Below are positions 25,290 to 47,118 of a stretch of 64,000 nt of DNA, piece after piece. Origin of the DNA: Pseudomonadales bacterium (GTDB lineage Bacteria; Pseudomonadota; Gammaproteobacteria; Pseudomonadales; Azotimanducaceae); contig JANQMF010000036.1 of NCBI GenBank assembly GCA_028280225.1, positions 1-64,000 of the forward strand, given 5' to 3'. The notes below the pieces were generated by a model. The model was not told the origin of the DNA. It saw nothing but the letters and a program-made list of their open reading frames with translations, and made no database searches. Positions within the stretch are counted from its first letter, which is position 1. Each line of letters opens with the position of its first letter. The position numbers and the translations under genes are program-made.

Positions 25290-28200
25290 ATGGTTACCCC
25301 CGAAGATCTTACGAACGATCCATTTACCCTTGTTGTTGCTAAAGAACCGGCACAAATCACCCGCACGGTGTCCGGCTTGTTACGGTGGTGTAAAGAAAAA
25401 AATAAATCCTGCCTGGTGCTGAACTTTAATGCCGCCCACCAGTGGGATGACGCCCTGCAGCGCATTCAGCCCAACCAGGGCAACATCGAAATCACCGACG
25501 GACCGTTGCTGAACCTGCTGATCCACACCAACGGCGAACGCCTTCTGGTGATCGACTGTCACGATTCCCAAGCCAAGCTGGTGGAGTCATTAAATGCCCT
25601 GTTTGATGACAAACCCTATCTACAAATCTCACCCACACAACAAAAACATCTTGATCTGGCCAAGGCCAGGATTGTCCTGCTGGTCACCCAACAGGACCTG
25701 CAGGACGGTAAGTTTTCCGAAGCCTTCTATTCCCGCCTGTCCCATATACAACTCAGCCAGCATGACTTTGCCCAGGCCAGCCCCAGCCAGATGTACTGGC
25801 CTGAAAAGCAAGTTGCGGCAACCCCGTATAAACGTCAGAACAACGACGTGACGGTCGACCTGGGACATGACCCGGATTGGCAGACCCCCTTGTGGGGGCG
25901 GTTTGTATCCACAAATGCCCAATGGTCCGTTGAAGCCGGGGGGTTACAAAAGGCGGTTGAGCAGAAAAAGCCGGTGCAATGTGTGCTGGTGAATACACCG
26001 TCCCCCCTGCCCAAGGACCTGCGCTACTTGATTGACCGGGCGCAAACACAACCCATAGACGTCTATGGTGAGGTGCTTGACCTGGGGCAGATCACCTTTG
26101 TGGACGGGGGTCAACAACAGCCGGACAAGCCACCCAAGGCGAAGGTGTATCAATACCGGGATCACCTTAACAAGCCGCTGTTCCCGGTGAATAGTGTGAC
26201 CGTGGAAGCCCTGTTTCAGACCATTTATCTGGACGAGAACCGTCACCTGACCAGCAAGCAAGGGCTGTTGGATAACAGCCTTAAGCGCAACCTGCTGATC
26301 AGCGGGCGGCTGTTACGTGCACAATGGCACCGTTTATGCCAACGGGCGGCTGGATATACCCTGTACCTGGGTAAAGGTGTGACGTGGCCCAAGGCTTTTC
26401 TGGGCAGTCCACCTAAAAAAAGTGCGGTCGTGGCCCAGACCCGGACGCTGGTGTGGTCCGATATGAACTCGCTGGAACGGTTGCGCAAAGATAAATACAA
26501 CACCGGGGTGTTTTATTGTCACGACCTGGGTCTGGGGACCACCTTGTTACACGCCTATGCGGAAAAAATAGGTGCAAAGATCAACTGGATCTATACCGTT
26601 AACGAAGATAAAGACGATGGACAACTGTTATCCCGTTATGACGCACAGCCGCAGGACAAGGTCAAAGAAGCGGTCAAAAACGACGAAAAATCCAATGTAG
26701 ATCAGGCCCCGGCGATCTGGGTTCCCCAACAGTTCGAACCTGTTGAAGGCCCTCTGCTCAAGCAGCTTCTGACAGAAGACCAAAAGGGGATCCTGCTGCT
26801 GAAGGCGGCGGACCTGGCGCCGGGGTTGCTGGAACATCTGGAAGTGGTCCTGCACCTGGGCCAGGTTCTGGTGGCGGGGCAACTACAGCCGGTAAAAAGA
26901 CGCTTATGGCTGCTGTTTGAAGACCACGTCACCCATCCGGCCCTGCAACATGCGCCCAGCCGGTATCGCTTGCAGGTTGATCAACCCAGACAGGTGTATC
27001 CACAGTTGCTGCGCGGCTCACACCGCGATACGCAAATTGCGGACACCACCCTTAAGCTTCTTCTGGATCTGGTGACCCAACTTAATGATCAAGTGCCCCA
27101 ACATACCCGGCTGAAAACCCCCCTCCACTTATCCTGGCAGCGGCTCCATGCGCTGTACAACGAACTGGCGGGGTTAAGCCACACGCAAGACGTACATGAG
27201 GTGGTGGACCGGCTGGTCTGGGGACACTTCTACGGTCAGGACCCGGAGGCCCGGGCGTATGCCGGGGTGCTGCTGAGGGCGGGCTTAGCGTCCCGGGACA
27301 CCGGGTATACGGTAGACATCACGGTCTTAGAGCAAGCCGTGGAAAACTGCGCAGACCTGTCCCGGTTCAGGGGGGTGTTCTGGCGGTTGTTGTCCAGTTT
27401 GAATGGGGCCTGTTTACGCGCCTTGGGTCTGGAGAAGGCACCGTTCCAGGGGGCAGGTTTGTCCCGCCCCCGACAGTACCTGCGTGCGTTGTTGTCCCGT
27501 TTTAACGGCAAGGATTTCAGCACCCGGACCCCGGGGTTGAGTACCCCCCTGGCCACACTTTGCCGCCGTTATGCCTTAGCCTGTGGGGTGACCGACTGGC
27601 CACTGATGTCAAGCCAGGTGGTAGACGAAAAGGAAGAAGAAAAAGACGACGACAAACACAACATCGACGTCATCGTCGACACCCCATCAGGCTCGTATCT
27701 ACCCCCGCGGGTCACCGTGTCCCATCCCAGCCACGCCTGGACCCGGCAAACCGATGAGGCGCTGCAACTTATCCGCCGTTACCCGGCGGTGGCCCTGTTG
27801 GGTCCGGCAGGGACGGGGAAAAGCCACTTTTTGCGGAAATTACAAACGTTTGCCAACAGCGCGCCTGACCAGAACAACAAAAACAAAACTCCAATGACCG
27901 TGCAACTGTTTGGCCCGTTGAACATCAGCCCCCACACCCATACCGGCAGCCCGGACTTTAACGCGGTGGTGGGCCGGTGGTTAGACCAAAAATCTGCACC
28001 CAATACCTGGTTTGTGCTGGCCCTGGACGAAGCCAACTTAAGGGACCAACGGTTGTGGAACCTGTGGCGGGACCTCAGCCAGGCCCAACCGGTGGTCTGG
28101 TGGCGGGGTAAATCCCATCCCTTAAGTCCCGGGCATAAGATTGTGGTGACCGGCAACCCGCCGGACTATGTGGGCCGGTTGCAGGGGTGGGTGATGCGGG

Positions 28201-31200
28201 ACCTGTTTTTTACCGTGCACTTTCATCCCTTTGACCGGGCGTATCTTAAACAGGCGATATTACCCAAGCTGCTTGAGCACTATGGCATGGATCAAAGTCA
28301 CTTAGCGGCCTTAAGTGACAATCTGGCGGTGGGCATATCAGCCTGCCGGGTGCTGCGGCCCCGGCAGCAGATGAGTATTCGGGACATCCAGTCTATTTTG
28401 CAGAGCTGTGTGGCCATTGATCCAACGTTTAAAAATCCCAAGGAGGTCCTTTATCAGGCCTGGGTCAGGGCGGTATTTGCCGGTTTCAGCCGCGACGAAC
28501 GTCAGGCCTTGATGACCTGGTACCGGCAGCGCTATTTTCAAGCTTATGACCTGGTTACCGCCCCCATCCACCAGGGGCTGCCTTTTGCCGCAGAGGCCAA
28601 GCGGGTCCTGCAAGGTCTCCCCAAAACCATCACCGTCACGCCGTTAACCCAGGCCTATGTGCAACAGGTGATCGCCTGTGTGAAGGATATCGAATACTTT
28701 GTTGAGCATCAGGATAAAAACAAGAATAAGAATAAAGACGGCACCCTGATCGGCAAGGTCATGACCATTTTTGAAGGGCCGTCGGGGATTGGCAAAGATC
28801 TGGTGCTACCCCAGGTGCTTAAACATTACCACTACCAGCCCCTGGACCAAACACCGGCCACTATCAAGACGCACCGCCACTACGTTCACCTGACCGCCAG
28901 TACCCTGGAAAAGCTGGTCAAGGTGATTGAGGATGCTAAGACAAAGGGCTATGTGGTGATTGTTTCCGAGATCAACCTGCTGCCCAGTGCGGAACTGGAA
29001 GGGGCGTTAAACGATACTCTGGCGGGGGCAGCCGCGCCGGGGTTTTATCTGTTTATCACCATGAACAGCAGCCGATTGTCCGGCCGGCAGACCCTGTCCC
29101 GGGCCTTTATGAACCGTGGGGTGGTGTGTCAACTGCGCAGTTACAACCGGCACGAACTGTTGCAGATTGTCCAAAACCACAAAGACGGCCAGACCCTGAA
29201 TCAGAACATCCCCCTATATCTGGTTGGGTTGCATCAATCACTGAGATCAGCCTTGGAAAAATACCCCAGGGCCCCGCTGCCCACATTGCGGGATTTACTT
29301 AAGTGTGTGCATACGGTAATCGTTCACAAAAAGGCCAAAAGTGCCAACCCGAAAAAGGACATTCTGCCCCTGTTCCTTCAGTCCTACCGGCTCTTTTATT
29401 CGTTTGGCCAGATCAGTGAGCTGGTGCCCTATAAAGTACCCGAGACGGATACCTTGCCGGTGTTGTCTCTGCTGGTGCAGTTGTACAGCCGGGGGTACTG
29501 TCGGCAGGTGAGCCGCCCGCAAACCGTCCCCGCCATCGGCTCATATACCCGGCAACACGGTGTGCGCTTAGGCCAATACACCCAGCATGATGTGCCGGTG
29601 ATCTGCTTCCAGGGCCACCTGGCCTACAATGAGGGCACGTTGCCGTTGTCGAATAATCCCTATTTGCTACCGGTGCTGCAGGCCTGGCGGCTGGGTCAGC
29701 AGCCTGTTCTGGCAAGCCGATACAAAGCGCTCAACCGGCACTGGGGCACCCCAACTGAGATTTTGAAGCGGTTACAGTCAACCCCGGATAACCGGGGGGA
29801 TGAAAAGGAGAAAAAAGTTCGGATGCCACCAGTTTCCCCGGCAGGGTTTGGGCAACTGCTGTGCGGGATGGTGTTAAATCCGGCTGCGGAGCACAACCTG
29901 GCAACGCTGATCACTTCCCAAACGCTGCCTTATGACTGGGTGAACTGTTTAAGGCAGGTCCATCTGACCTATCATACCTTCAAAGCCGCACAAACCATGT
30001 TGACCAAACCAGGCCGAGTTGGGGATGCCTTGGTGTTGGCATTTTTACACCGCTGGGCGGAACTGACCCAGGCGTATTTTGACGAGTATGCGTGGAACAA
30101 AGACAAACCCAAGCAGCAGGCGTATAAATTTTCCGCCTTTAACCAACAGTATCAATACGCGGTTGGGTGGGCTAAACAGGCGCCGTTAACGCCCAAGGCC
30201 CAGCGTGGGATTGAAGGGTGTGTGTACCTGGATTTTCAGCGCATGCAGGTCCTTACCCCTCAGCAATATACAAACTGGTGGCAGCAGTTTGAGCCGAGTG
30301 AGGTTTACCAGGTACCGCATCATAAAAATATCAAACCACAAAAATCGGTTGACAAAAACGTTAAGCTGTTTGGTAAGCAGTGGATGGACATATTTAAACT
30401 CTGGTTAAACATGCAGTTTGGTCAAAGTACGGCGGCAAATTTAAAATACACACTTAATCCCAAAGGGGATCAGGACGATCCCGACCTCATTCCTCGTCTT
30501 ACCTACTTTAACCGCTTGCTTACCGAAGGCCGATCTCAAAATGCGGTGTTCAGACCAAGGTTTAGCCCACAGACTTTGATACCGGGAATGAATTACGCGC
30601 GTGAAAGCCGCCGGCTATTTTTGTACTCGACACATAATCCGGAATGGTGTGCCCATTTGTTGTTGGCCACAGCCACGGGCCGGTGGTCTTACCCGCTGCC
30701 CAAGCAAACAGATTTATATCGCCGCCGGCTCAGGGAAACCCTGTATTACCTGATATACAACCGCCAATTGGCGCAAAGCTACCCCGGTTTTGCTTGGCAT
30801 TTGAATTCTTCCGGTCAAAAAACCAAGCATCCTTACAACGCAGACTTGACCGTTAGGGGATTGCAGTGCCGTTATTGGCAGCAGGAGGTGGAGAAGCTCC
30901 TCAACAAGAAACCCAAGTATACCGAAGTCACAAACGATGTGCTGATCTATTGGATGATTAAGCGGAGTTCAAAGGTAAATAAAAGCGACAGGCAGTCACA
31001 AAGGTATGTTCAGGAAAAAATCTCATTTGAGGACACAACGCTGGCCTTAACCGCTGCCTGGGTGTATGGATATATCAGCTACGCTGAGATAGTCAATGCC
31101 TATGCGGGTAACAAGTGGTGGCAGAACCTGCTGCAAGTCACTTCCGTATTCTTTGATATTGAATCGAAATTACACAAATTCAACAACCTGGCGTTTATTG

Positions 31201-33755
31201 AGCCCCAACAGATTGTTGAAGCGATTGATGAAATTAAAGTAACGGTAGAGCTGATTTGTAAAAAAAGCAGACCTACTCAAACCACAAGCCTGAAACTTGG
31301 TGGGTCTAATCTGAGCGGTGTCCCCCGTGCGTCGAAACACCTGGCAACCCAGGTTCGGGGCATCAAATACCTTGCCACCGGCATTATCGATCAGTGTGAT
31401 GAGTATGGGGTGCCTTTGACGTCGAGAAAATTGACCGTGGAGGACTATATCTCCGCCGGCAACCCGAAAGCGCTGAATCAGATAGGCAGTATCACCGCGC
31501 TCCCGTTTGATATTGTCAAAAACGAAGCCAGCTTTAAGCTGCTGGTCCCGTTGGGGTGCGCAATCCAAAACCCGTCAGCACTGCACCAAACCATGGATCT
31601 GACAAAGTTAATTGGTCCCGATGGATTAGTTACTTTTAAACTACCCGGAGGAATCAGACAGTTCTCCTACAACGTCCTGTTCCCGAAGAAGAAGCCACTG
31701 AAAGAAGCGCCCTTAGTTGTAAAGTGCACGCATAAGAAAACTTTTAAAATAGACACGAATACAAAGAACGGCAAGACGCTGAACAAGATTGTGTCGGAGC
31801 GACTGCCAGAAGACGGGAAAAAATTGGGCCGCAACGACGTTTACCTGATTGAGGGTTTAACCCGCTGGATTGCAAAAAAGGGGACCTACTCGGGTAGTGA
31901 TGACACCCGTGCTCAATGGCAGGGCTGGCGAAACAAGAACAAAGAAAAAGAGCATATGCTCAATTTTTGTTTGCGCATTGAGTTCAAAGGGGTGTGTCAT
32001 GAATTCAATAGCATGTTATTTGCCATCCTGTGGAGTCTAAAGCACTACAATAACCCCATGCGGCTGGTGGACGTCTATCTGGTCGAATCCGGTGAGGTGT
32101 ATTCAACCGGAGGGCATATAGTGTTGCAGATATTTATAGACGAACAGTGGGTCACTTTTGATGCCACCCCCCCGGACAACCAGACCGTTGATCACGTAAC
32201 AATTGACAATAGGATTGAGTTTGGACGTGCGGCTTATCCCTATGCACCACCGGATAGGGATAACCCCTATGATACACCCATAAAGAACGCCGAGATTCGT
32301 AATGCGATTAAAACCCGGTTTCCCCAACTGTTCCATACGTCCAGCGAACGCGGTGGAGTCCGCTTTGCCTGGTCGGGTCACCGGATAAATCTGAAACAAC
32401 TGGTTCGGGGTCAACCTCCGTTTGCCGTATCCAATACAGTAACCGTCCTACAGCCCCAGAACCTGGTGATAACCAACAGCAAATTTAGTTACGTTATCGC
32501 AGGATATGACAATATCCTGAGTGTCGAATACTGTGGCCGGTTCTATCGTGGGTATGCGATCAATCATCTGTTTGCGCAATTGTTCAATTTAGGGTTCACG
32601 TTCACATTGAACACGACTAACGATATTGTTGAGGTAAGTGATATCGATCAGCTAAAGGATCTGATGTACGCAGGTCATATCTGCGATATTTCTCCTGAAC
32701 AGCTGAATATGCTACGCGAAAAAAAGGAATTAACCGAGCCTTATACGATTGTAGACATGAATCTGGTGGCTAAGTTAGTGAATGCCTTTCTTGGAAACTA
32801 CGCATTTGGCAGCTATCAGAAGAATAACAAGGAATACACATATTATCATTTGAACCTGAACGGACTAAGCTCTCAACACTTTAATGTATACGATGGTCTG
32901 GAAAAAGTGTTGTCACAACCAATAGAAAGACCGTCTGCCTCTTTTTGGATGGGCAGGATAAGCAAGGGTTTACCAGACAATATATTTCAGCGGCTAAAGG
33001 TCACCAGGCAATTACGCCATGTAAAAATCATTGGGGATAAGTTCGAGGGGGCGCCCGTCTCGAAAACCGCGTTTAAATCCATTCCCTGGTTAGAGTCGTT
33101 TAACTTGTGCATCGGCAGTTTGCAAGCGCGGGGTCACTTTGAAGCCTTGGGCGCTACCTCACTCTACAGTCTTATACTGGACCTGAAAGGCCTCAACAAG
33201 GTGAATGAACTCAATCAATTTTTGCGGCAAGCATCCACTTTGTATGCACTGGGTGTTATGTGTACAAATATTGACAAGCCCGTAACAATTCCTCCCAACA
33301 TAAAGTATCTGAGCATTAAAACGTTCAAAAATATCGATTTCAGGTACAATAAATTGGTGACCTTGGCTTTGAAAGATGCAAACGTTGAAGAGATCTTTTT
33401 GAGTCGCGCAACATTTCCGGAACTGGTGACTCTCTCCCTGCATGAAGTCATCTGGCCCGATGTTCTGGACCCCAAATTATGGGAGGATTTTAAGGCCCGC
33501 TGTCCGAAACTAACCCGCTTCAAGGTGGTTGATGGACCCCAATATAAGTACGATCAATCCAAAAACGAATCACTCTTAGATTCTGACAAGCTTCGGTTCC
33601 CGGGAGTTACTCATGTGTTATATAAATTTTCCCCCATCAGGAAGCGGCAAATGAATGGAAACATAAAACATCCGTTGGTTAAGTTGTTCAGGCAAAAACT
33701 ACAGGGGAATAACTTTCCCGATGAAGTTCATTTGGAAACACATATGGAATGGTGA
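25290..33755 (+). CDS. giant AAA+/transglutaminase-like/LRR-like protein, copy 1
   Basis: Predicted length is 2,821 residues. Residues 1-800 contain degenerate AAA-like segments without Walker A (LLVID at 85-89; GILLLKAADLAPGLLEHLE from about 500). The first complete AAA+ module has Walker A GPAGTGKS at 838-845, Walker B LALDEAN with Asp913-Glu914, and sensor VVTGNPPDY near 952-960. The second has GPSGIGKD at 1163-1170 and VIVSEINLLPSAELEGALN with Glu1227; the Walker B Asp is Ser. The text after it, FITMNSSRLSGRQTLSRAFMNRG, is of the midasin/dynein-related AAA_5 type. Residues about 1300-2150 are unclassified. A transglutaminase-like domain has Cys2236, His2276 and Asp2291. The C-terminus (about 2550-2790) is LRR-like. 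No signal peptide or membrane helix is apparent. Function is unknown; a remodelling machine with a protease or cross-linking activity is inferred. Confidence 0.82.
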   Translation: MVTPEDLTNDPFTLVVAKEPAQITRTVSGLLRWCKEKNKSCLVLNFNAAHQWDDALQRIQPNQGNIEITDGPLLNLLIHTNGERLLVIDCHDSQAKLVESLNALFDDKPYLQISPTQQKHLDLAKARIVLLVTQQDLQDGKFSEAFYSRLSHIQLSQHDFAQASPSQMYWPEKQVAATPYKRQNNDVTVDLGHDPDWQTPLWGRFVSTNAQWSVEAGGLQKAVEQKKPVQCVLVNTPSPLPKDLRYLIDRAQTQPIDVYGEVLDLGQITFVDGGQQQPDKPPKAKVYQYRDHLNKPLFPVNSVTVEALFQTIYLDENRHLTSKQGLLDNSLKRNLLISGRLLRAQWHRLCQRAAGYTLYLGKGVTWPKAFLGSPPKKSAVVAQTRTLVWSDMNSLERLRKDKYNTGVFYCHDLGLGTTLLHAYAEKIGAKINWIYTVNEDKDDGQLLSRYDAQPQDKVKEAVKNDEKSNVDQAPAIWVPQQFEPVEGPLLKQLLTEDQKGILLLKAADLAPGLLEHLEVVLHLGQVLVAGQLQPVKRRLWLLFEDHVTHPALQHAPSRYRLQVDQPRQVYPQLLRGSHRDTQIADTTLKLLLDLVTQLNDQVPQHTRLKTPLHLSWQRLHALYNELAGLSHTQDVHEVVDRLVWGHFYGQDPEARAYAGVLLRAGLASRDTGYTVDITVLEQAVENCADLSRFRGVFWRLLSSLNGACLRALGLEKAPFQGAGLSRPRQYLRALLSRFNGKDFSTRTPGLSTPLATLCRRYALACGVTDWPLMSSQVVDEKEEEKDDDKHNIDVIVDTPSGSYLPPRVTVSHPSHAWTRQTDEALQLIRRYPAVALLGPAGTGKSHFLRKLQTFANSAPDQNNKNKTPMTVQLFGPLNISPHTHTGSPDFNAVVGRWLDQKSAPNTWFVLALDEANLRDQRLWNLWRDLSQAQPVVWWRGKSHPLSPGHKIVVTGNPPDYVGRLQGWVMRDLFFTVHFHPFDRAYLKQAILPKLLEHYGMDQSHLAALSDNLAVGISACRVLRPRQQMSIRDIQSILQSCVAIDPTFKNPKEVLYQAWVRAVFAGFSRDERQALMTWYRQRYFQAYDLVTAPIHQGLPFAAEAKRVLQGLPKTITVTPLTQAYVQQVIACVKDIEYFVEHQDKNKNKNKDGTLIGKVMTIFEGPSGIGKDLVLPQVLKHYHYQPLDQTPATIKTHRHYVHLTASTLEKLVKVIEDAKTKGYVVIVSEINLLPSAELEGALNDTLAGAAAPGFYLFITMNSSRLSGRQTLSRAFMNRGVVCQLRSYNRHELLQIVQNHKDGQTLNQNIPLYLVGLHQSLRSALEKYPRAPLPTLRDLLKCVHTVIVHKKAKSANPKKDILPLFLQSYRLFYSFGQISELVPYKVPETDTLPVLSLLVQLYSRGYCRQVSRPQTVPAIGSYTRQHGVRLGQYTQHDVPVICFQGHLAYNEGTLPLSNNPYLLPVLQAWRLGQQPVLASRYKALNRHWGTPTEILKRLQSTPDNRGDEKEKKVRMPPVSPAGFGQLLCGMVLNPAAEHNLATLITSQTLPYDWVNCLRQVHLTYHTFKAAQTMLTKPGRVGDALVLAFLHRWAELTQAYFDEYAWNKDKPKQQAYKFSAFNQQYQYAVGWAKQAPLTPKAQRGIEGCVYLDFQRMQVLTPQQYTNWWQQFEPSEVYQVPHHKNIKPQKSVDKNVKLFGKQWMDIFKLWLNMQFGQSTAANLKYTLNPKGDQDDPDLIPRLTYFNRLLTEGRSQNAVFRPRFSPQTLIPGMNYARESRRLFLYSTHNPEWCAHLLLATATGRWSYPLPKQTDLYRRRLRETLYYLIYNRQLAQSYPGFAWHLNSSGQKTKHPYNADLTVRGLQCRYWQQEVEKLLNKKPKYTEVTNDVLIYWMIKRSSKVNKSDRQSQRYVQEKISFEDTTLALTAAWVYGYISYAEIVNAYAGNKWWQNLLQVTSVFFDIESKLHKFNNLAFIEPQQIVEAIDEIKVTVELICKKSRPTQTTSLKLGGSNLSGVPRASKHLATQVRGIKYLATGIIDQCDEYGVPLTSRKLTVEDYISAGNPKALNQIGSITALPFDIVKNEASFKLLVPLGCAIQNPSALHQTMDLTKLIGPDGLVTFKLPGGIRQFSYNVLFPKKKPLKEAPLVVKCTHKKTFKIDTNTKNGKTLNKIVSERLPEDGKKLGRNDVYLIEGLTRWIAKKGTYSGSDDTRAQWQGWRNKNKEKEHMLNFCLRIEFKGVCHEFNSMLFAILWSLKHYNNPMRLVDVYLVESGEVYSTGGHIVLQIFIDEQWVTFDATPPDNQTVDHVTIDNRIEFGRAAYPYAPPDRDNPYDTPIKNAEIRNAIKTRFPQLFHTSSERGGVRFAWSGHRINLKQLVRGQPPFAVSNTVTVLQPQNLVITNSKFSYVIAGYDNILSVEYCGRFYRGYAINHLFAQLFNLGFTFTLNTTNDIVEVSDIDQLKDLMYAGHICDISPEQLNMLREKKELTEPYTIVDMNLVAKLVNAFLGNYAFGSYQKNNKEYTYYHLNLNGLSSQHFNVYDGLEKVLSQPIERPSASFWMGRISKGLPDNIFQRLKVTRQLRHVKIIGDKFEGAPVSKTAFKSIPWLESFNLCIGSLQARGHFEALGATSLYSLILDLKGLNKVNELNQFLRQASTLYALGVMCTNIDKPVTIPPNIKYLSIKTFKNIDFRYNKLVTLALKDANVEEIFLSRATFPELVTLSLHEVIWPDVLDPKLWEDFKARCPKLTRFKVVDGPQYKYDQSKNESLLDSDKLRFPGVTHVLYKFSPIRKRQMNGNIKHPLVKLFRQKLQGNNFPDEVHLETHMEW

Positions 33756-33905
33756 TCAGGTAACTATGACGGTTGGTCCTGGTGCCGAGGGTCCCGTATA
33801 GAATATAGCGCGTTGCCAAATTCCAGCACACGAGCATGATTTTCACGTTGTCGGATTTTGGCCGTCCACACTATTGTCTTTGTCAATTAGTGCTGGAACC
33901 TCATC
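33756..33905 (+). promoter_or_regulatory. spacer and conserved leader before giant gene 2
   Basis: This 150-base gap separates the two giant genes. Its last 46 bases (33860-33905) align with the leader of copy 1 (GGCCGTC ... GTCAATTAGTGCTGGAACCT). No terminator hairpin with a T-run is evident after copy 1, so read-through into copy 2 is possible. Confidence 0.45.
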
Positions 33906-36900
33906 GTGGCCACTCTACAAAACCTGTTAGAAAATCAATTTACCCTTTGTATTGCACATAACTCTGCTCAGATAACGCGTGTAGCTAGCGATATGTTGCA
34001 GGGCATGAAAAACAAGAAGCAACCCTGCTGTGTTCTGAATTTTAATGCATCCCATCAGTGGGATGATGCCTTGCAGAGTATGCAACCGCATCAGGACAAA
34101 ATTCAAATCACGGATGGCCCCTTGCTGAAGCTCCTCCTGAGTACAGAAGGTGACCGCACCTTGGTTATCGATTGTCACGATTCTCAAGCTGAGCTGGTCG
34201 AGTCCCTCAATTCAGTATTTGACGCCAACCCTTACTTGCAGATATCACCCACGGAACGCAGGGACCTGGATCTAAACAAAGCCAATATTGTCCTGCTGGC
34301 AACCGGTAAGGACATACGCTGCGGTAAATTTTCTGAAGCCTTTTATTCCCGCTTATCCCATGTGGTTCTTAACGTTGGGGATTTTTCAAAATCCAGCCCC
34401 AGCCAGGTTTATTGGCCTGAGGAAAAAAACTCTTCGAAGACAAAATATCAACCCCAAAGTAGTGATGTTGGTGCGGATTTAGGTTATGACATGGATTGGC
34501 AAACGCCATTATTTGGTAAGTTTATTCCAAACAATTCGAACTGGTCGATCGAGTCGGGTCAATTAAAAAAAATCGCGACGGAAAAGCAACCTGTGCGATG
34601 TGTTCTATTTAACGTACCAACACCCCTGCCCAAAGATCTACGCTATTTTATTGATAGTGCCAAATCTCAAATCATGACCGTATACGGCGAACCTCTGGAT
34701 CTGCGGCAAGTGACCTTTGTTGATGGGGGGCATAAAGGATACAAAAATAAGCCCAAGGCAGCAGCTTACCAGCATACACCCAAGCAGAGTTTTTTCCCCG
34801 TAAATTCGGTTACCGTGGAAGCCCTGTTGCAAACTGTCTATCTGGACAACAACGGCCACCTGCAATCCAAGCCGGGATTGTTGGCGAAAGAATTTAAGCC
34901 GGCTCTATTGATCAGTTCGCATCTAAGCCGATCACAATGGCACCGCTTATGTGCAGTGGTTGAAAAAAATCCCCTGCACATTGGCCGGCATGTTAACTGG
35001 CCCAAGGACTATCTGGGTAACCCGCCCAAGGAGGGTGTCACGCTGTCCGAAACCAAGGTGCTTTTGTGGAAAGATCAGAATATCGAATCGATTCAGCAGC
35101 TTCGAAAGGATTCAAATCAGACGGTGGTGTTCTATTGTCAAGACCTGGGTTTGGGGACTCGGTTATTGCAAGACTGTGCCCAAAAAATGGGTACAAAGAT
35201 TAGCTGGATGTATACCGTTAACGAGGACAAAGACGATGGCAGACTGTTGTTCCGCTATGCCGCGGAACGGGCTACCGATATGCCAAGTGATCAGGTGCAA
35301 GATCGGGACGAAGACGACAAAGATGAGGTTAAGGAGGGCCCGGTCGACGACAAAGACGACGAAAAATCCAATATCGATTACAGCACGAATATCTGGGTAC
35401 CCCAGCGGTTTAAAAGAGTGGAAGGTCCCTTATTAGGGCAGTTACTGGCTGAAGACAACAAAGATATCCTGCTGCTGAAGGCAGCGGATCTGGCTCCGGG
35501 GTTGCTTGAGCATCTGGAGATTGTGCTGCACCAGGGTCAGGTGCTTGTGGAAGGTGAACTGCGCCCGGTCAAGCGCCGCTTGTGGCTGCTGTTCGAAAAC
35601 AATGTAACCCATCCGGTCTTACAACATGCCCCTAGCAGCTATCGGCTGCAGATCGATAAGCCTGGAGAAGTTTATCAAGATCTGCTTATACGTTCCGGTC
35701 AGAAATCTGTACGCTCACAACCTGCAAACATTCCTTTTAAGGTACTACTGGATCTGGTTTCACACTTTAATGAACAGGTTCCCAAATATACCCGTCTGAA
35801 AATCCCTGTTCACTTATCCTGGCAGCGCATCAAGGCGCTGCATCGCGCACTCTCGGATCAAAAGGATACCCAAGATATACATGATGTAGTCGATAGTTTG
35901 ATATGGGGACATTTTTACGGTCAGGATCCGGAAGTTCGAGCCTATGCCCGAGTAATGTTGCGGGTGAATTTATCTCCCACAACGGGTCAGCATGAGGTGG
36001 ACATTGGCGTGATGGCGCAGGTGCTTAAAACCTGTCGCGATCTGACCATTTTCGAGGATGTGTTCTGGCGCTTGTTATGCAGCCTCAACGCTGCCTGTTT
36101 GCAAACTCTGAAGCTGGATAGAGCCCCGTTTCGCGGTGAGGGCCTGGAACACGCCCGGCAATACTTGCGGGCCATGCTTTCCCACTACAACGGTGTAGAT
36201 TTCGGAGGACAGAAACGGGTTTTGTCGAACCAGAAAAAGGACAACAAACGTGATGAACTTAAAGACAAGGGCGCTGCGCCGGTATTTTCCCTATCAGCTA
36301 TCTGTTATCAATACGCGCTGACTTTTGGTGTCGCCCGTTGGCCGAATACCCGCGAGCAGGGTTTAGAGAATACAAAAAAAACCAACAACACACATGCTCC
36401 CAACGACCGCCTGCATATACGGACCTCCAATCCGGTTACGCCCTGGGTACAACAAGCCGAGGAGGCGCTGCGCCTGATTCATCACTACCGGACGGTTGCG
36501 CTGTTGGGCCCAACAGGTACGGGAAAAAGCTACTTTTTGAGACATTTAAAGAAATTTGCCAACACCGGCAAAAAACTGAAGAACAAAGGTAAAAACCCGA
36601 TTGACCTCCAACTGTTTGGGCCGTTGAACATCAGTCCGCAAACCCATACCGATAGTCCGGACTTTGAGGTGGTGGTTAAGAAGTGGCTGAATCACAAGTC
36701 TGGGCACGACGCCTGGGCGGTGCTGGCTTTGGACGAAGCCAACTTGAGGGATCAGCGTTTGTGGAATGTGTGGCGGGATATCAGCCAAGACACTCCGATA
36801 GTCTGGTGGCAAGGCGAAAGGCGTAACTTAGGTGCCGGGCATAAGATTGTGGTGACCGGCAATCCGCCGGACTATGTAGGCCGATTACAGGGGCGGGTGA

Positions 36901-39900
36901 TGCGGGACCTGTTTTTTACCGTTCATTTTCAGCCTTTCAGCGTAGGCTATCTGGAAGAGAAGATACTGCCGGATTTGCTCGAACACTATGGTATTGAGAG
37001 AAGTCACTTACCGGCCATCAGCGAAAATCTGGCTGCAGGTATAGAGGCCTGCCGGCTCTTGCGGCCCCGGCAGGAAGTGAGTATTCGCGACGTTCAATCC
37101 ATCTTGCATACCTGTGTGGTCATAGACCCTGACTTCAAAAACAGCAAAAGCTTGCTCTACCAGGGCTGGGTGAGAGCTGTCTTTGCCGGATTCAGCACAA
37201 GTGAATGTCAAGCCTTAATGACCTGGTATCAGCAGCGCTACTTCCAAAAATACGATCTGGTGGTTAACCCTTTGCACAAAGTACTTCCTTTTGACAAACA
37301 AACATCAACAGTGCTGGAAGATCTGCAAAAACAAATTACAGTGACATCTTTGACCCGGGATTATGTAAAACTGGTGGTCGCTTGTTTAGGAGACATTGAC
37401 TACTTTGTCAAAAGAAAAAAGAAAAACAACAACGCCTTAACCGGCAAAGTGATGACAATCTTCGAGGGCCCCTCGGGAATTGGCAAGGATTTAGTTCTGC
37501 CCAAAGTTTTGGAGAGTTCCGGTTATTCACCCATTAACAAGATGTCTGATTCTCCAGGTGATGGAAAATTCTATGTTCACATCACAGCCAGTACCCTGGA
37601 AAAACTGAAAGAGGTTATTGAGAACGCCAGGATAGGTGGCTATGTGGTGATTGTTTCCGAGATCAATCTGCTGCCCAGCGCGGAACTGGAAGGGGCCCTG
37701 AATGATATTCTGGCAGGGGACGTAAACCCCGGTTTTTATCTGTTTATTACGATGAACAGTAGCCATTTATCCGGACGTCAGTCATTGTCCCGGGCATTTA
37801 TGAACCGGGGTGTGGTTTGTCAACTGCGTGGCTATAACCGGCATGAGCTACTGCAGATTCTGCAAGACGATGAGTTTGGCAAACAGCTTAATCAGGTTGT
37901 AAGGAACTGTTTGGTGAACTTACATCAAGCAATTGTCAGGTATTTACAGGAGAATCCGGCAGCTTCCAAACCCACCTTAAGAGATTTGTTACGGTGTGCA
38001 AAATTAGTTGTCAACAAGGGTGTTGGCAGGGCTAAATCCGGGGCTTTACAGAATACAGTTGTGCCGTTAGCGAGGGAGTTGTATCGGCTGTATCTGTTAA
38101 TTGGTGGTGTTAAGAAACTGGAGGTAGCAAAAACAAGCGATGTGATCAATTCCGGCGAACTGGATTCTTTGCCGGCATTGTCACATTTGGTTCAGTTGTA
38201 TAGTTATGGCCACTGCCGAGCGGTTAGAAGAAGTAAAAATATGTCTGCCATTGGTGGGTATGACCGGCGCCAAGGTGTATTGGTACAGGCGGATAACCGA
38301 AATTCTGAGGGGTTGGCGACCCGCTTGCAGGGACACATTGCACAATATGAACCATATTTGCCTTTCTCAAACAACCCTTATCAAACTCTGTTATTGCGGG
38401 CCTGGTGGTTGGCTGAGCAGAAGCCGGATCTTGCCAGCCGGTACCTGCAGCTTAATTCAAATTGGCAATTTCAGGATTATGGTCCTGTACGGGAGCAAAC
38501 TGAAGAGAAAGATAGTGAAAAGGAAGACATAAAGGACGATACCAAGAACGATAAGAAGTTGGACGAGAAAAAGACAAAGACGGATAACAACAAATCCGAG
38601 GCCTGTCACAAAATCTACGGCGACCTGCTTTGTGGCCTTTTACTCAGTGTAAGGCCAAAAGATACTCTGTCTAAGCTGATGAACACCAATAACCTGAAGG
38701 ACCGATCGGCTGCTTGGGTAAGCTGCCTGAGGCAAGTCCATCTTACATATCATGTCTTTCAGGCTGTGAGTAAAGATCTTAAAAAACTCGCTGGCGGCCC
38801 AGTCCGAGAAGCTCTGATGTTGGCTTTTTTAAACCGTTGGGCACAACTTACCCACGCATATTTCGAACAGTATATGTGGAATCGAGATAAGGGCAAACAG
38901 CAGAGCCCCAGATATTCGGCCCTGATCCAACAGTATCAATACGCGGTTAAATTAGTTCAAAAAGCACCGCTAAATGCTTGGACCAAGCGCGGTATAGAAG
39001 GGTTTGTGTACATACTGTCTGAACAACTGCAAGACATGGCGCCGCAGGACTACCTGAGTTGGTGGCGACATTTCAGTTCCAGTTCGAAAGAGGCGATTAA
39101 GGAAAAAGTTACGCTTCTGGACGAACATGGGCAGGTCATAAGGTTGTGGTTGGGTATGCAGTTTGACGACGTTCAGGAGATCCATCTCAGAAAAACGCTG
39201 ATCCTTGATGGTAGCGTTTTTGAAAACGAAGAAGCACAGGCCCGGGTACAGGCCTTTGTAAGGCTACTGACACAGGGGCGCTGTGCACGGATAGTGTGGC
39301 AGCCGAATCACCCACGGAGTTTAGCTGCGGGCATGCGTTATGTGGGAGAAAGCCGCGAATTTTTGGTGTTCTCCGAAGGTAGTCCCGAGTGGTGTGTCAA
39401 TTTGTTAATTGCTACTGCCACGGCCCGCTGGGCGTATCGGTTGCCTCATCAAACTGACCGATTTGGCCGCGAACTCACCGAAACCCTGTACTACCTTATA
39501 TACAAGCGACAATTACTCCAAAGCTTTCCTGGTTTTTGGTGGCCACAAGAAATGCTGAATCGGAAGAACGAGAAGTATAAGGCTAGCTACGGCGACCCTG
39601 ATGTAATCGGCAAAGCGACCTTGTGCCGTTACTGGCAGCGAGCGGTGAATAACATCAATACGGTTAATCCAACGAATTATTCCGCCGTGCCAACAGACAT
39701 TCTGACCTATTGGCTTATTAAATCAATGGATACAGTCACAGGGGCGCAGATGCGTCAGCATGTACAAAACAGAAGTTTGGAGGATGTCATCCATGCCCTG
39801 TTGACCGGTTGGGTGTTCGATTATCTAAGTGACGATGAGTTGATAGAAGCATCTTCCGCTTTCTGGTGGCCCGATCTGATAGAGGCTATCGAAACAGTTG

Positions 39901-42515
39901 TCTTGGCCAAAAAGAATTTGGGCAAACTTAAGAAGCGGGGTCATCTTAATCCACAACAGATCGTCAGTGCGATCAGGGAGATAACGGCATCCGTAGAATT
40001 AGTCCTTAAACGATTATATAAAAACAAACCAACACAATTGACAAGTTTGAGGCCTGATGGATCGGGACTATTTAACAGTAACTCCGGCATACCGAAGCTA
40101 GTAGCATATAGTATCAGTCGCAATATTAAATATCTTGCCACCGGAATTATTGACCATTGTGATGAGTATGGCGTACCTGGCAAAGCTAGAACGCTCACTT
40201 TAGACGACTATGTTTCTGCTGCTGATCTGGACACAATGGTTAGTGTAGGTCGTATCGTAGCGCACCCACGAGCTAGAACCAATACAGGGGCCTTCTTTCA
40301 ACTGATGGCCCCACTGGGGAGTGCTATCCGAATATCTCCTGATGAGAAAAGTAAAACGCATGACATAAGTGAGACAATCGGTTCAGATGGTTTGATCGAC
40401 CTAATTACACAAGATGCGTTCGAACCTTTACCTTACGAGGTCCTGCGTCCCAAAGTTCGTTCATCGGCTATACCCGACATAAAGGCTTGTAATCACAAGC
40501 AGTCTTTCAAGATCGATACCAATACTAAGTTGGGCTCTGCACTGGATCATATCGTGTCGAATGTCCTGCCTGGCAACAAAACAAAGTTGAGCGAAGAAGA
40601 TATTGATAAGATTAGAGATTTGGAGCGGTGGATTTCACGAGAAGGCACTTATTCGAACAGCAGCAGCACAGCCGCAGATTGGAAGCGTTGGCAGAGTACT
40701 TACAAGACACACAACCTGCATATGCTTAACTTTTGCTTGAGTATCGGCTTTGAAGGCGTGTGTTATGAGTTCAACAGTATACTGTTTGCCATCCTCTGGA
40801 GTTTAAAACGTTACAACAACGCTATGCGTATGGTCAGTGTGTTCAAGGTTCAGGCTGGGCAAGTGTATTCGAACTACGGCCATATCGTGGTGGACATCTA
40901 TATCGAGGGTCGGTGGGTCCGGTTTGATGCTACTCCGCAAGGTGCATCAACAGTTGATTATGTTGAAACCGGCGAGTTCATTAAATTTCAGTCTCCGGCT
41001 TATCCCTATGCCCCGCCGGACCGGAAAAACCCCTGGTATACGCCGGAAAAGAATGCTGAGGTCCAAAATGCCATTAAAGCGCGTTTTCCGCAATTGTTTC
41101 ATCGGCGTGGCAACAGTGGTGGGGTGCACTTTGCCTGGTCCGGTCACCGGCTGAACTGTAAGCAATTGGTGAAAGGCAAACCACCCTTTGAAGTACCAAA
41201 TATTGTGACTGTCCTACAGCCCCAGCATTTGGTGATCAAAACCCATAAGCTTGTCCATTTCTTGGTGGGGTATCAGAATATTCTGAATGGATATGCAGGT
41301 GGCAGGTTTTTCCTGGCACATGCAATAAACCATTTGTTTGCACAGCTTTTCCGCCTCGGTTTTACTTTGAGTGTGAAAACCAACAGCGATTTTATTAAGG
41401 TGCAAAATATCGATCATCTAAGACATCTGGCTTATGCGGGTAATATATGCGAAGTACCCGAGGGTCAGTTACAGCAACTGCGTGATACCAAACGTTTCGA
41501 TGAGCCTTACCTGATGATCGATGCGGGTTTTATGGACAATTTTGTCAAGGCTTTCCATTCGTTCTACAAGGATGATCAAAACCAGCCTGCGTTAGGACTG
41601 GAAGAGACGATTGTGGCGAGAGTCATCGATAAAGGTGAAAAAGAATCAAAAAGAATAGGTATCATCGATGGGCCGTCGGCAAGAATTGTGTTAAACCGAA
41701 ATGGCCGGATAGTGAACAACACCTTTCAGCGGATGCAAGCTACTGGAATATTGCGCAATTTGACAGTTGTCTATCATTTCAGGGATGAGGTGCCCGTTCC
41801 CAAGGAGGCTTTTCAATCCATACCCTTGTTGGAGGGTTTCGGAATACACAGCTACGGCGGCATCGAAGCTTTGGACTTTTTTGAGATTTTAGAGGCGACC
41901 TCTCTTTACAGTTTGACCATTCACAGCGGATATAAAACGTTAGATAAACTGAATCTCTTTCTGCGGACGGCATCACAGCTATACGCCTTGTGTATCTCCG
42001 GCTTATACGATCAAGTACTTAAGCCACCCTTGGTGATTCCTCCCAACATCAAATATCTATCTGTTGATACAACGGAAAATATTGACTTTCGGTATAATCA
42101 GATAACCACTTTGGAAGTGGCAAAAGGAGAATTTCGAGAGATACTATTAACTAAGGCAACATTCCCCGAGCTTGTGACGTTGTCGCTGAATTGCGTTCGA
42201 TTCCCCGGCGCTCTGGATATCGACCTTTGGGAAGCCTTTAAGGCCCGTTGCCCAAAACTTATTCGATTCTGCCTGCTTGACGGTACGGATCCGGATCCTG
42301 AAACCAATAAGCGTGATGACCTGGTGACTAATAAGCATTATGAGTTTACGGGTATTACTCACGTTGAGTATTGTCGTTTATCTAGTGATCCAGTGGTAAT
42401 CAAGGCAAACCAAAACAAAAATCAACGGGAGAAAAACCTGCAGAACAATCTTGCGTTTCTGGAAGAACATAATTTTCCCGACGCATTTCAGGTGAGGGCA
42501 ATAGCAAAATGGTAA
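33906..42515 (+). CDS. giant AAA+/transglutaminase-like/LRR-like protein, copy 2
   Basis: This tandem paralogue of the preceding gene has 2,869 residues and aligns with it from start to end. AAA+ module 1 has GPTGTGKS at 868-875 and LALDEAN with Asp943. Module 2 has GPSGIGKD at 1188-1195 and VIVSEINLLPSAELEGALN with Glu1252, again with Ser in place of the Walker B Asp. The transglutaminase-like triad is Cys2286, His2326 and Asp2341 (GVCYEF, YGHIVV, RFDATP). The C-terminal LRR-like part ends HNFPDAFQVRAIAKW. Extra length lies in Lys/Asp/Glu-rich linkers, for example about residues 1535-1565. The start is GTG, aligned with the ATG of copy 1. Core motifs are kept while linkers differ, so both copies appear to be under selection. 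Confidence 0.82.
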   Translation: MATLQNLLENQFTLCIAHNSAQITRVASDMLQGMKNKKQPCCVLNFNASHQWDDALQSMQPHQDKIQITDGPLLKLLLSTEGDRTLVIDCHDSQAELVESLNSVFDANPYLQISPTERRDLDLNKANIVLLATGKDIRCGKFSEAFYSRLSHVVLNVGDFSKSSPSQVYWPEEKNSSKTKYQPQSSDVGADLGYDMDWQTPLFGKFIPNNSNWSIESGQLKKIATEKQPVRCVLFNVPTPLPKDLRYFIDSAKSQIMTVYGEPLDLRQVTFVDGGHKGYKNKPKAAAYQHTPKQSFFPVNSVTVEALLQTVYLDNNGHLQSKPGLLAKEFKPALLISSHLSRSQWHRLCAVVEKNPLHIGRHVNWPKDYLGNPPKEGVTLSETKVLLWKDQNIESIQQLRKDSNQTVVFYCQDLGLGTRLLQDCAQKMGTKISWMYTVNEDKDDGRLLFRYAAERATDMPSDQVQDRDEDDKDEVKEGPVDDKDDEKSNIDYSTNIWVPQRFKRVEGPLLGQLLAEDNKDILLLKAADLAPGLLEHLEIVLHQGQVLVEGELRPVKRRLWLLFENNVTHPVLQHAPSSYRLQIDKPGEVYQDLLIRSGQKSVRSQPANIPFKVLLDLVSHFNEQVPKYTRLKIPVHLSWQRIKALHRALSDQKDTQDIHDVVDSLIWGHFYGQDPEVRAYARVMLRVNLSPTTGQHEVDIGVMAQVLKTCRDLTIFEDVFWRLLCSLNAACLQTLKLDRAPFRGEGLEHARQYLRAMLSHYNGVDFGGQKRVLSNQKKDNKRDELKDKGAAPVFSLSAICYQYALTFGVARWPNTREQGLENTKKTNNTHAPNDRLHIRTSNPVTPWVQQAEEALRLIHHYRTVALLGPTGTGKSYFLRHLKKFANTGKKLKNKGKNPIDLQLFGPLNISPQTHTDSPDFEVVVKKWLNHKSGHDAWAVLALDEANLRDQRLWNVWRDISQDTPIVWWQGERRNLGAGHKIVVTGNPPDYVGRLQGRVMRDLFFTVHFQPFSVGYLEEKILPDLLEHYGIERSHLPAISENLAAGIEACRLLRPRQEVSIRDVQSILHTCVVIDPDFKNSKSLLYQGWVRAVFAGFSTSECQALMTWYQQRYFQKYDLVVNPLHKVLPFDKQTSTVLEDLQKQITVTSLTRDYVKLVVACLGDIDYFVKRKKKNNNALTGKVMTIFEGPSGIGKDLVLPKVLESSGYSPINKMSDSPGDGKFYVHITASTLEKLKEVIENARIGGYVVIVSEINLLPSAELEGALNDILAGDVNPGFYLFITMNSSHLSGRQSLSRAFMNRGVVCQLRGYNRHELLQILQDDEFGKQLNQVVRNCLVNLHQAIVRYLQENPAASKPTLRDLLRCAKLVVNKGVGRAKSGALQNTVVPLARELYRLYLLIGGVKKLEVAKTSDVINSGELDSLPALSHLVQLYSYGHCRAVRRSKNMSAIGGYDRRQGVLVQADNRNSEGLATRLQGHIAQYEPYLPFSNNPYQTLLLRAWWLAEQKPDLASRYLQLNSNWQFQDYGPVREQTEEKDSEKEDIKDDTKNDKKLDEKKTKTDNNKSEACHKIYGDLLCGLLLSVRPKDTLSKLMNTNNLKDRSAAWVSCLRQVHLTYHVFQAVSKDLKKLAGGPVREALMLAFLNRWAQLTHAYFEQYMWNRDKGKQQSPRYSALIQQYQYAVKLVQKAPLNAWTKRGIEGFVYILSEQLQDMAPQDYLSWWRHFSSSSKEAIKEKVTLLDEHGQVIRLWLGMQFDDVQEIHLRKTLILDGSVFENEEAQARVQAFVRLLTQGRCARIVWQPNHPRSLAAGMRYVGESREFLVFSEGSPEWCVNLLIATATARWAYRLPHQTDRFGRELTETLYYLIYKRQLLQSFPGFWWPQEMLNRKNEKYKASYGDPDVIGKATLCRYWQRAVNNINTVNPTNYSAVPTDILTYWLIKSMDTVTGAQMRQHVQNRSLEDVIHALLTGWVFDYLSDDELIEASSAFWWPDLIEAIETVVLAKKNLGKLKKRGHLNPQQIVSAIREITASVELVLKRLYKNKPTQLTSLRPDGSGLFNSNSGIPKLVAYSISRNIKYLATGIIDHCDEYGVPGKARTLTLDDYVSAADLDTMVSVGRIVAHPRARTNTGAFFQLMAPLGSAIRISPDEKSKTHDISETIGSDGLIDLITQDAFEPLPYEVLRPKVRSSAIPDIKACNHKQSFKIDTNTKLGSALDHIVSNVLPGNKTKLSEEDIDKIRDLERWISREGTYSNSSSTAADWKRWQSTYKTHNLHMLNFCLSIGFEGVCYEFNSILFAILWSLKRYNNAMRMVSVFKVQAGQVYSNYGHIVVDIYIEGRWVRFDATPQGASTVDYVETGEFIKFQSPAYPYAPPDRKNPWYTPEKNAEVQNAIKARFPQLFHRRGNSGGVHFAWSGHRLNCKQLVKGKPPFEVPNIVTVLQPQHLVIKTHKLVHFLVGYQNILNGYAGGRFFLAHAINHLFAQLFRLGFTLSVKTNSDFIKVQNIDHLRHLAYAGNICEVPEGQLQQLRDTKRFDEPYLMIDAGFMDNFVKAFHSFYKDDQNQPALGLEETIVARVIDKGEKESKRIGIIDGPSARIVLNRNGRIVNNTFQRMQATGILRNLTVVYHFRDEVPVPKEAFQSIPLLEGFGIHSYGGIEALDFFEILEATSLYSLTIHSGYKTLDKLNLFLRTASQLYALCISGLYDQVLKPPLVIPPNIKYLSVDTTENIDFRYNQITTLEVAKGEFREILLTKATFPELVTLSLNCVRFPGALDIDLWEAFKARCPKLIRFCLLDGTDPDPETNKRDDLVTNKHYEFTGITHVEYCRLSSDPVVIKANQNKNQREKNLQNNLAFLEEHNFPDAFQVRAIAKW

Positions 42516-43126: not shown

Positions 43127-46100
43127 ATGTTATCAAGGCACATCGAAGGTGAAAAACCATCCTGCCAGGTGATGGTCAGTAGTACGATGAATGACCTTCC
43201 TGATCATCGTGAGCGCGCGAAAGATGCCATTATTCGAGCCGGTTGTATGCCGGTGATGATGGAGCATTCAACCGCTGAACCTCAAACTGATGCAATAGAC
43301 TTTTCGCTGCGCAAGGTGGAGCAGGCGGAGATATATGTAGGCGTGTTTGCTCTTCGATATGGTTATATCCCAGAAGATCAACAGCGTAATCCTGATAATC
43401 TCTCTATTACGGAACTGGAGTATCGTCACGCAAAGCGTCTGGGAAAGAAGGTCCTGATTTTTATTGCCAGTGATTCACACTCCTTTTTGCCTGGCCAAAT
43501 CGACCAGGAACCTTTAGCGCTTGAGAAGCGTCAGGCACTGTACCGGTTGTTAACCACTGATGAGATTGTTGGGTTTTTTAACAATCCGGATGACCTTGGA
43601 TCAAAGGTCTACCAGGCTATTATCGAACAGCAAGCGAAACAGCCAAAAGAGGCACCAAATGCTACAGCGTTTTTCAGTGCCAAAAAAAGTATTCGTATTC
43701 CCCCGGAACTTTGGGCGGTGCCCGCATATACGCTTACGAACGCCTTTATAGGGCGAAGTTCTGAATTAGACAAGTTAGATATCTGGGCTGATTCCGACGA
43801 TTCGATACTTGTGGTTGAAGGTATCGGTGGGCTTGGTAAAAGTGCTCTTACCTGGGAATGGCTCAACTCAAGAGCCGAGCATAAAATCTCCGATTTATAT
43901 GGCAGACTTTGGTGGAGTTTTTATGAACAAACTTCTCTGGCGGATTTTGCAAGACACGCCCTTGCATATCTGACGGAACGCGAAGTGGACGCCGTTAGCA
44001 ATGACTACAATAAAAATGCACGTGAACTCGTCATCGCACTGAATGAACGTCCTTCGCTGCTTGTGCTGGACGGCTTTGAACGATCGTTAACGGCCTATCA
44101 TCGTTGGGACAAGGCACAACAACGCGACGATCAGATAGAGACCCACATGCGTGGTTGCACAAACCCGGCTGATGCCTATCTACTGAAATGGCTGGCCAGC
44201 GCTACTCCCTCCAAGATCCTGATTAGTTCCCGCTTGTTTCCGTATGAGTTGGAAAATGTTGCGGATCGAAGTCCAATTCCCGGCGTTGCTAAACAGAATT
44301 TGGATGGCCTGTCTGAAGAAGATACGCTTCAATTTATCCGGCATCACAAAATAGAAGGGGATGCCAAAGAGATTCTTCGATTTGCGGATCGTTTTGGCAG
44401 GCACAGTCTCGTGCTAAAGCTTGTTTGTGGAATGATCAGTTTTTATCGCGCTGATCCCAAAAACTTTGATGCCTGGCTTGCGGATCCAAACTATGGCGGC
44501 TCACTTAGACTGAAAGATCTGGACCTTAAGCAAACAAAAACTCACATTCTGGAATTTGCACTAAGTGGTTTGAGCGATAAAACCAGGCAAGTGCTGCAAC
44601 GTATCGCCGTTCTTTCGGAAGACGTTGATTACGATACGATTAAGGTGCTGAATCCCTACATTCCCGAGGAAATGAATGCACCTATTCCAGTAACAGACTC
44701 TATCCGTTGGCAATACATTTGGAATGAGGACCACAAGCGTAAGGTGTTCCCGGAGCACGAAAAACGTTATCAGGCTGAGCTTAAGAAGTATGATCAATAC
44801 AAGATGGATCTTGGCAATGCTGTGCCCGATTTTGATGCGGCACTTGATGAGTTGTGTGAGCGTGGTCTTTTGCAATGGGATGTAGATACCAACCGTTATA
44901 ATATGCATCCGGTTGTACGAGGTTCAGCCAGCGACCAAATTGAAGAGCAGGATAGAAAACACGCGCTAAAGACGGCAAGAGATCACTTTGCGGCATTGCC
45001 CGAGGATGATCTTGAAAATGCAACGGACATTGCACAGATCTCCAATAGCATGAATATCTACTACTGCCTGATTGGTGAGGGGCTTTTTGAGGAAGGTGCT
45101 AAGCTTTACGAAGAAAAATTGTTCGGTGTCATTCGGCATCGTTTTTTCGCGTTTGACATTATTGTTGAGCACCTTGAACCTGTCCAACGATTTATTGATA
45201 GTGAATCCTCAGCCGGTGACATACAACGTCATGGCCGCTGGCTTTCAAACTCACTGGCAAAAGCCTATGACGAAATTGGCAAGTGCCGGGAAGCTGAAGA
45301 TACCATTCTAAAGTCATTAGAGTCTAACGTTGAGAATGAGAGATGGAACTGGGTGATTGATGACTTGTCGGTACTGTGGAACATATACGTTGGGGATGAT
45401 CGCCTGGCAGAACAAGCAAGATTGTCAGCGATATCATTGGAATTGAGTGAAGCATTGGGTGTTAAAGAAGAGGTGACTAATACCGCTCACCAATATTACT
45501 GCAGTGCTGTCGTTAGGGGACAATTTCGCGAGGCAGAATCAATTTCTAAAAGTTACGAACTCGAGAGCCAAACAGAAAGGCCAAATTTTATATTCTGGAC
45601 ATGGTTTAAAGATTGGATACAGGGTAAAGAAAACGATCAGACTTGGCAGAAGGGTTATGCGCTGGCTCAATCAACTGGAGATCTATGGCACCAGGAAATG
45701 TTCTTGCGCTGGTATGCGGTATGGGCGCTTGAACAAAGTCGCGGCCAGGAAGCGCTTGGATTCATTGACGAGGCGTTGGCGTTGGCCCACAAGATGGGTA
45801 AATTTTCGACCAGTCATGCCGTTAAGGCGTGGGCGTTAGCTAAAGTGAACAAAGCGGAAGATGCTGTTAAGGAATTGAATCTGATTGAAAATAACAAACC
45901 GGGCTATGCATCAGCAAGAGCGTGGCTTGAAATAGGGGAACGGGAGAAAGCAAAGCAAATTTGCCTGAATGCTTATGCAAAGGCCTGGGGTATTGGTGCC
46001 CCGTTCAGCGAGGTGTTTACATTGGGTCGTTCGCACAGGTTGCTCCTTAGGCTGGGTGAGAAGGTTCCGGAATTACCCAATACCGGAAATTCGCAGTTGC

Positions 46101-46802: not shown

Positions 46803-46894
46803 TGCCGGTTGTCTACAAACCCCACTGCTGCCTAGCATACAGAATGAACGTGGTGAAGGTATAGATGAAGGTATAGATATTGTTCGTTGTAGGC

Positions 46895-46982: not shown

Positions 46983-47011
46983 CCGAGCGGGAGAAACTTC
47001 GAACCGCGATT

Positions 47012-47030: not shown

Positions 47031-47118
47031 ATTCACATCGGGCTATTCGCCCGATGCTCACCCTGCGGGCTGCGCGCGGCGCGGTGCGCCGTGCTCGTTC
47101 GCTACGCTCCCGATGGGT

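Follow-up and report, generated by a model that had tools for sequence, protein, structure and literature searches.

Two adjacent giant genes of a Pseudomonadales bacterium encode midasin-type AAA+ chains with a transglutaminase-like domain and point to a bacterial family of candidate conflict proteins

Giant proteins that carry serial AAA units in a single chain, namely dynein, midasin and RNF213, are regarded as eukaryotic. RNF213 combines six AAA units, only two of them catalytically competent, with an enzymatic module in one giant chain (PMC7311170). In the MoxR-vWA ternary conflict systems, AAA+ proteins of the MoxR/dynein-midasin clade have been proposed to control hypervariable effectors (PMC7159879). 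Here we describe two adjacent giant genes, P0001 and P0002, from a 64,000-nucleotide stretch of a Pseudomonadales bacterium (contig JANQMF010000036.1 of assembly GCA_028280225.1; hereafter the window). Their products, of 2,821 and 2,869 amino acids (aa), are paralogues, and both genes agree exactly in length and coordinates with a first-pass annotation made from the sequence, which had read them as the same chain. They probably represent a bacterial family not yet described, in which a midasin-type AAA+ ring machine, a papain-type hydrolase and a diversifying recognition region are built into a single chain, the modules are shuffled into opposite orders between lineages and copies are amplified to arrays of more than 30; its paralogues would serve as a repertoire either in immunity or in the manipulation of eukaryotic hosts. 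Searches of the open-licence literature yielded no account of the family. The giants and the gene that follows them are laid out as follows.

25290..33755, + strand: giant protein 1 (P0001), one open frame, 50% identical to P0002 end to end
25290..27280, + strand: P0001 putative degenerate AAA units 1-4, residues ~1-663 (family profile 11-663, P0001 being a profile row; Pfam AAA_5 27-150; unit-to-unit hhalign)
27735..28559, + strand: P0001 AAA unit 5, canonical Walker A K844 (nt 27819), Walker B D913-E914 (nt 28026) (family profile, motifs)
28707..29324, + strand: P0001 AAA unit 6, Walker A GKD (K1169), Walker-B-like SEIN (S1226) (family profile, motifs)
31821..32174, + strand: P0001 transglutaminase-like domain, C2236, H2276, D2291 (Pfam PF01841, E 1.6e-4, 22.4 bits against a cut-off of 23; triad positions)
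32910..33599, + strand: P0001 tail resembling leucine-rich repeats (LRRs) (motif chain of 8, shuffle p 0.0012; no Pfam match)
33906..42515, + strand: giant protein 2 (P0002), one open frame, GTG start
33906..35966, + strand: P0002 putative degenerate AAA units 1-4, residues ~1-687 (family profile 10-687, P0002 being a profile row; hhalign)
36438..37265, + strand: P0002 AAA unit 5, Walker A K874 (nt 36525), Walker B D943-E944 (nt 36732) (Pfam AAA_5, E 1.9e-6; motifs)
37398..38045, + strand: P0002 AAA unit 6, GKD (K1194), SEIN (S1251) (motifs)
38046..40505, + strand: P0002 unclassified middle, residues ~1381-2200 (search of the family negative)
40584..40940, + strand: P0002 transglutaminase-like domain, C2286, H2326, D2341 (nt 40761, 40881, 40926) (Pfam PF01841, E 5.8e-7, 30.2 bits; triad)
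41658..42350, + strand: P0002 LRR-like tail (motif chain of 8, shuffle p 0.0018)
43127..46159, + strand: NLR-like gene P0003 with DUF4062, NB-ARC and TPR (Pfam)

The window genome (G000; 4.44 Mb in 242 contigs, 96.7% completeness) holds at least five copies of the giants. Besides P0001 and P0002 there is a third complete copy, P0007, on contig C210. C39 carries, at its end, a C-terminal half of 1,566 aa; an N-terminal piece lies likewise at the contig end in C180 and in C18. Assembly breaks inside copies hide the exact number, hence the lower bound.

The first-pass annotation had proposed degenerate AAA segments followed by two AAA+ modules of dynein-related type, a reading that holds. The dynein-related Pfam model AAA_5 matched P0001 at residues 27-150 (E 5.7e-8), within a unit that lacks a P-loop, and P0002 at residues 864-912, with Pfam scores for AAA modest overall. 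Walker A, Walker B and sensor 1 motifs of the dynein-midasin type were found together with the AAA_5 profile. Unit 5 is canonical in both giants, whilst unit 6 carries GKD in place of GK[ST] and SEIN in place of DE. Similar GKD and SE motifs occur in unit 6 of relatives from Endozoicomonas and Elusimicrobia; those from Legionella have GKS and DE. A family profile of 29 rows, including P0001 and P0002 and leaving out P0007, spanned the four degenerate and two P-loop units (residues 1-1400). It matched P0007 at residues 9-668 (E 5e-109) and 787-1387 (E 3e-124), and therefore the window proteins would share the whole six-unit core. When the units were compared with each other by hhalign, values of 98% (units 5 and 6), 95% (1 and 5), 95% (2 and 4) and 60% (4 and 5) were obtained, with unit 3 weak at 15-24%. 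By these comparisons the four segments ahead of the P-loop modules appear to behave as degenerate AAA units, and the count of six, four degenerate plus two with P-loops, draws on hhalign and on the AlphaFold model of one homologue.

Searched against the PDB, the 29-row profile found midasin as the best non-bacterial relative (E 1.8e-64 over five stretches), followed by dynein (E 1.5e-12). A smaller profile, with six rows and limited to the two P-loop modules, likewise ranked midasin first among solved structures (E 9e-45; 4e-11 for the best single stretch). The AlphaFold model, of residues 835-2033 of a compact homologue from Legionella quateirensis (pLDDT 79.9, pTM 0.64), gave Foldseek matches with dynein motors and with the ring of Rea1 at E values of 1e-17 to 1e-19, dynein being best at 1.6e-19. 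Because the TM-scores were low (0.33-0.39), we take this match as support for serial AAA units in the predicted fold and for no particular ring geometry.

The resemblance to midasin (Rea1), the AAA+ protein of eukaryotic ribosome assembly, thus lies in serial dynein-related units in one chain, in the profile and in the ring fold. However, most units of the giants lack P-loops, a transglutaminase-like domain and an LRR-like end are present, and no vWA/MIDAS domain was found in P0001 or P0002 by Pfam at E<=1. At the same threshold neither giant matched a dynein stalk or microtubule-binding domain, which sets them apart from dynein heavy chains despite the fold and profile matches. The first-pass annotation had also invoked RNF213. 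The layout of two active units in six is indeed alike, but RNF213 was rejected as nearest relative, lying outside the 60 best PDB matches listed with midasin far ahead, and the giants have no RING match at E<=1 and a cysteine hydrolase in place of the E3. In comparison with the MoxR-vWA systems, the giants are one chain and not three genes, and searches found neither a vWA nor a VMAP or iSTAND component. An NTPase, a repeat sensor and an effector are similarly joined in one chain in bacterial NLR/STAND defence proteins such as Avs, and an NLR-like gene adjoins the giants; however, the NTPase here is of midasin type and not STAND/NACHT, with NACHT below threshold in the window giants (13-14 bits against a cut-off of 26.7).

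The second module is the cysteine hydrolase. Each of the four own-genome paralogues tested matched Pfam Transglut_core (E 2e-8 to 1.6e-4), the score exceeding the gathering cut-off in P0002, P0007 (31.4 bits) and the C39 copy (34.7 bits) and falling just below it in P0001. With the Cys-His-Asp triad in place, this confirms the annotated domain as a member of the transglutaminase-like, papain-type superfamily (PF01841), differing from its kin in being embedded in a giant AAA protein, and its activity is predicted. A direct hhalign comparison of the window domain with that of the relatives was not significant (probability 2.8); the link between them consequently rests on the common Pfam family, and the two modules are best described as of the same superfamily, joint inheritance being unsupported by this comparison.

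The LRR-like end that had been proposed fared less evenly. Chains of eight LxxLxL-like units were present in 4/4 own-genome paralogues (shuffle p 0.001-0.005), whilst the tails of these four gave no Pfam LRR match, and so an LRR-like tail is supported at the level of motifs. LRR models do match the Legionella-type relatives at ~1e-16 (E 9.6e-17 for relative L076). Homology of the window tail to these repeats was unsupported by hhalign (probability 2.6). A two-sequence AlphaFold prediction for the C-terminal half of the window giants was poor (pLDDT 30) and went unused. The middle region (~1400-2190) stays unclassified, as the first-pass annotation had it: a search with hidden Markov models among family members returned no homologue outside the own genome. 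A degenerate zincin, considered there from the sequence, was not confirmed.

Homologues were found in the Endozoicomonadaceae (Endozoicomonas, Kistimonas), a 'Salinisphaera' isolate, an Oceanospirillales bacterium, the Legionellaceae (Legionella quateirensis, L. bononiensis and others), a Thiotrichales bacterium and an Elusimicrobium. This range, the opposite module orders and the 33-copy array described below are new here. In the genomes sampled the family was present in 15/392 of the order and in 15/368 of the class beside the window's own, and a phylum-wide draw of 397 gave one other positive genome. One plasmid record carries a copy, from Legionella adelaidensis, where it is annotated simply as 'AAA family ATPase'. 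The modules co-occur in both orders: Legionella-type proteins run LRR, transglutaminase-like domain, degenerate AAA, active AAA, whereas those of the window and Endozoicomonas begin with the AAA core, followed by the transglutaminase-like domain (AAA, transglutaminase-like, LRR-like in the window). A tree of the active AAA pair splits these two orders, with the window group a distinct branch on the AAA-first side. Some copies of the Endozoicomonas arenosclerae type lack the transglutaminase-like domain. By eye, an Elusimicrobia homologue (L052:7313-12043), cut by a contig end, has the AAA core followed by a VHEAGH stretch of HExxH type and no transglutaminase-like domain. In another genome (G357 C1:140424-149858) a 4,790-aa open frame contains an AAA core plus a portion of another, an apparent fusion of tandem copies.

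The largest repertoire lies in a complete Endozoicomonas genome of 7.38 Mb (G221), in which 33 intact giant genes (2,450-2,690 aa) stand on the same strand within 286 kb (C1:957046-1243604, L088-L103), about 3.9% of the chromosome, together with several broken copies, repeat-rich spacers and transposase-like genes. Among the 33 paralogues the active AAA pair is the most constrained, with identities of 0.74-0.95 and a median dN/dS of 0.23. The ratio rises to 0.31 in the degenerate units and 0.44 in the transglutaminase-like domain, reaching 0.67 and 0.55 beyond it and 0.81 in the N-terminal tail. The catalytic Cys and His are invariant in 33/33, and the third residue is D in 25, N in 7 and S in 1. 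The window genome shows the same trend of a conserved motor with diverging middle and tail: its paralogues share 0.60-0.69 identity in AAA units 5 and 6 and the transglutaminase-like domain, and 0.41-0.42 in the middle and tail. These figures suggest a constant motor and active site joined to a diversifying binding region. A second tandem array, a dense one-strand run of ankyrin-repeat genes, was seen in the same Endozoicomonas genome at C1:657303-743725.

How might such a protein work? We lean, tentatively, towards a recognition-coupled, ATP-driven cysteine hydrolase of conflict or immunity, acting inside the cell in the window organism. Each giant would be a single-chain midasin/dynein-type AAA+ ring of four units without P-loops and two with them, one of these canonical, bearing in the same chain a papain-type Cys-His-Asp hydrolase and, for recognition, a diversifying C-terminal half with LRR-like repeats at its end. 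The variable part would bind a foreign or modified protein, binding would release the ATPase, movement of the ring would thread or remodel the target or free the active site, and the hydrolase would then cut or modify the target. What we infer in this proposed machine is that the ring closes and that its parts are coupled, as well as the substrate and the direction of action. In the window organism the machine, maintained as several diverged copies, would most likely serve conflict or immunity within the bacterium itself. The 'defence or conflict machine' of the first-pass annotation is therefore reasonable as to conflict, given a C-terminal half that diversifies and a motor that is constrained. 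For defence as such, no convincing PADLOC model, conserved partner gene or, among relatives, defence-island context was found.

Several observations weigh against the reading of an in-cell conflict machine. PADLOC returned no match for P0001-P0003, and for the relatives weak generic AAA matches, the best with E 1.4e-6. Phage records contained no family match. The own-genome copies adjoin housekeeping genes and not defence islands; nor did the neighbourhoods of the relatives, which the annotation had proposed to search for defence genes, reveal any such context or a fixed partner gene, the relatives lying among ordinary genes. Moreover, all dN/dS values are below 1, such that the diversification could reflect relaxed constraint, from which these values do not separate local positive selection. 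Lastly, the relatives occur mainly in host-associated bacteria, living with animals or amoebae. This favours a possible alternative that the first-pass annotation did not consider and that we regard as serious, a giant effector delivered into a eukaryotic cell, in some copies to the nucleus, where the motor-coupled hydrolase would act on host proteins chosen by the variable repeats. Relatives in the Endozoicomonadaceae and Legionellaceae, which make up most of the named homologues, have either a second FHIPEP protein, of type III secretion system (T3SS) type, or a Dot/Icm marker. Motifs resembling nuclear localisation signals (NLSs; K[KR]x[KR]) are present in the variable N-terminal tails of 16/33 array members (4.4 expected) and, at other Endozoicomonadaceae loci, of 11/24 (2.3 expected), with AAKRVKLD-type sequences among them. 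LRRs are a known effector module, and G221 also holds 201 ankyrin matches, as against 3 in the window genome. However, the NLS motif is short, the array copies share ancestry, and Legionella-type tails are not enriched (6/17, 3.0 expected). No effector built as a six-unit AAA ring in a single chain is known to us. In the window genome the sole FHIPEP is the flagellar FlhA, inside a flagellar operon, and no DotI/IcmL, VipB or TrbI marker was found (type IVB (T4BSS) and type VI (T6SS) secretion systems being among those tested). Because the window organism has no T3SS, T4BSS or T6SS marker and few ankyrin proteins, and its giants have no NLS-like tail, action in the cell is favoured there, by a small margin over action on a host; both may occur in the family.

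That the giants are midasin-like factors for the assembly or remodelling of an endogenous complex, the cysteine domain processing a cellular substrate, would fit with midasin being the best non-bacterial relative of the motor, but is unlikely for a family that is sporadic (15/392 and 15/368), multi-copy, diverging and absent from congeners, and in which Pfam found no vWA/MIDAS domain. Very improbable is a decaying or selfish family without present function, duplicated in tandem by recombination only. The arrays, with their broken copies and transposase-like genes, would be expected of it, but purifying selection on the motor and triad disfavours it, as do the 33 intact frames. If the favoured reading of a motor-coupled hydrolase is true, the presence of this kind of motor in bacteria, fused to a cysteine hydrolase, would be relevant to how the dynein, midasin and RNF213 machines arose, and the family would add a new class of conflict protein in symbionts of corals, sponges and amoebae. 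The Endozoicomonas array offers a testable case of recognition modules diversifying on a constant motor.

The giants are accessory in the window genome, with no BLAST match in any of 36 congeners (0/36). Ordinary chromosome (mutS, recA, alaS, aspartokinase) forms the left flank, and the GC content drops from 0.54-0.57 to 0.45-0.49 across roughly 30-46 kb of the window, beside a tRNA-Ser gene. The NLR-like gene P0003 lies downstream as a neighbour by position and is real, having DUF4062, NB-ARC and weak TPR matches. It had no DNA match in 39 other genomes of the genus searched and is peculiar to this locus, the relatives having no conserved partner gene. Upstream of the giants (15781-17901) is a Peptidase C39 and ABC transporter gene of the double-glycine exporter type. 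Within P0001 the GC content shifts from 0.557 in the 5′ half to 0.478 in the 3′ half, which might indicate a mosaic gene or a replaced C-terminus. At the tRNA-Ser(tga) (46892-47287), a 91-nt direct repeat of 96% identity overlaps the 3′ end of the gene, and there is a terminator-like palindrome; together they are a possible integration footprint.
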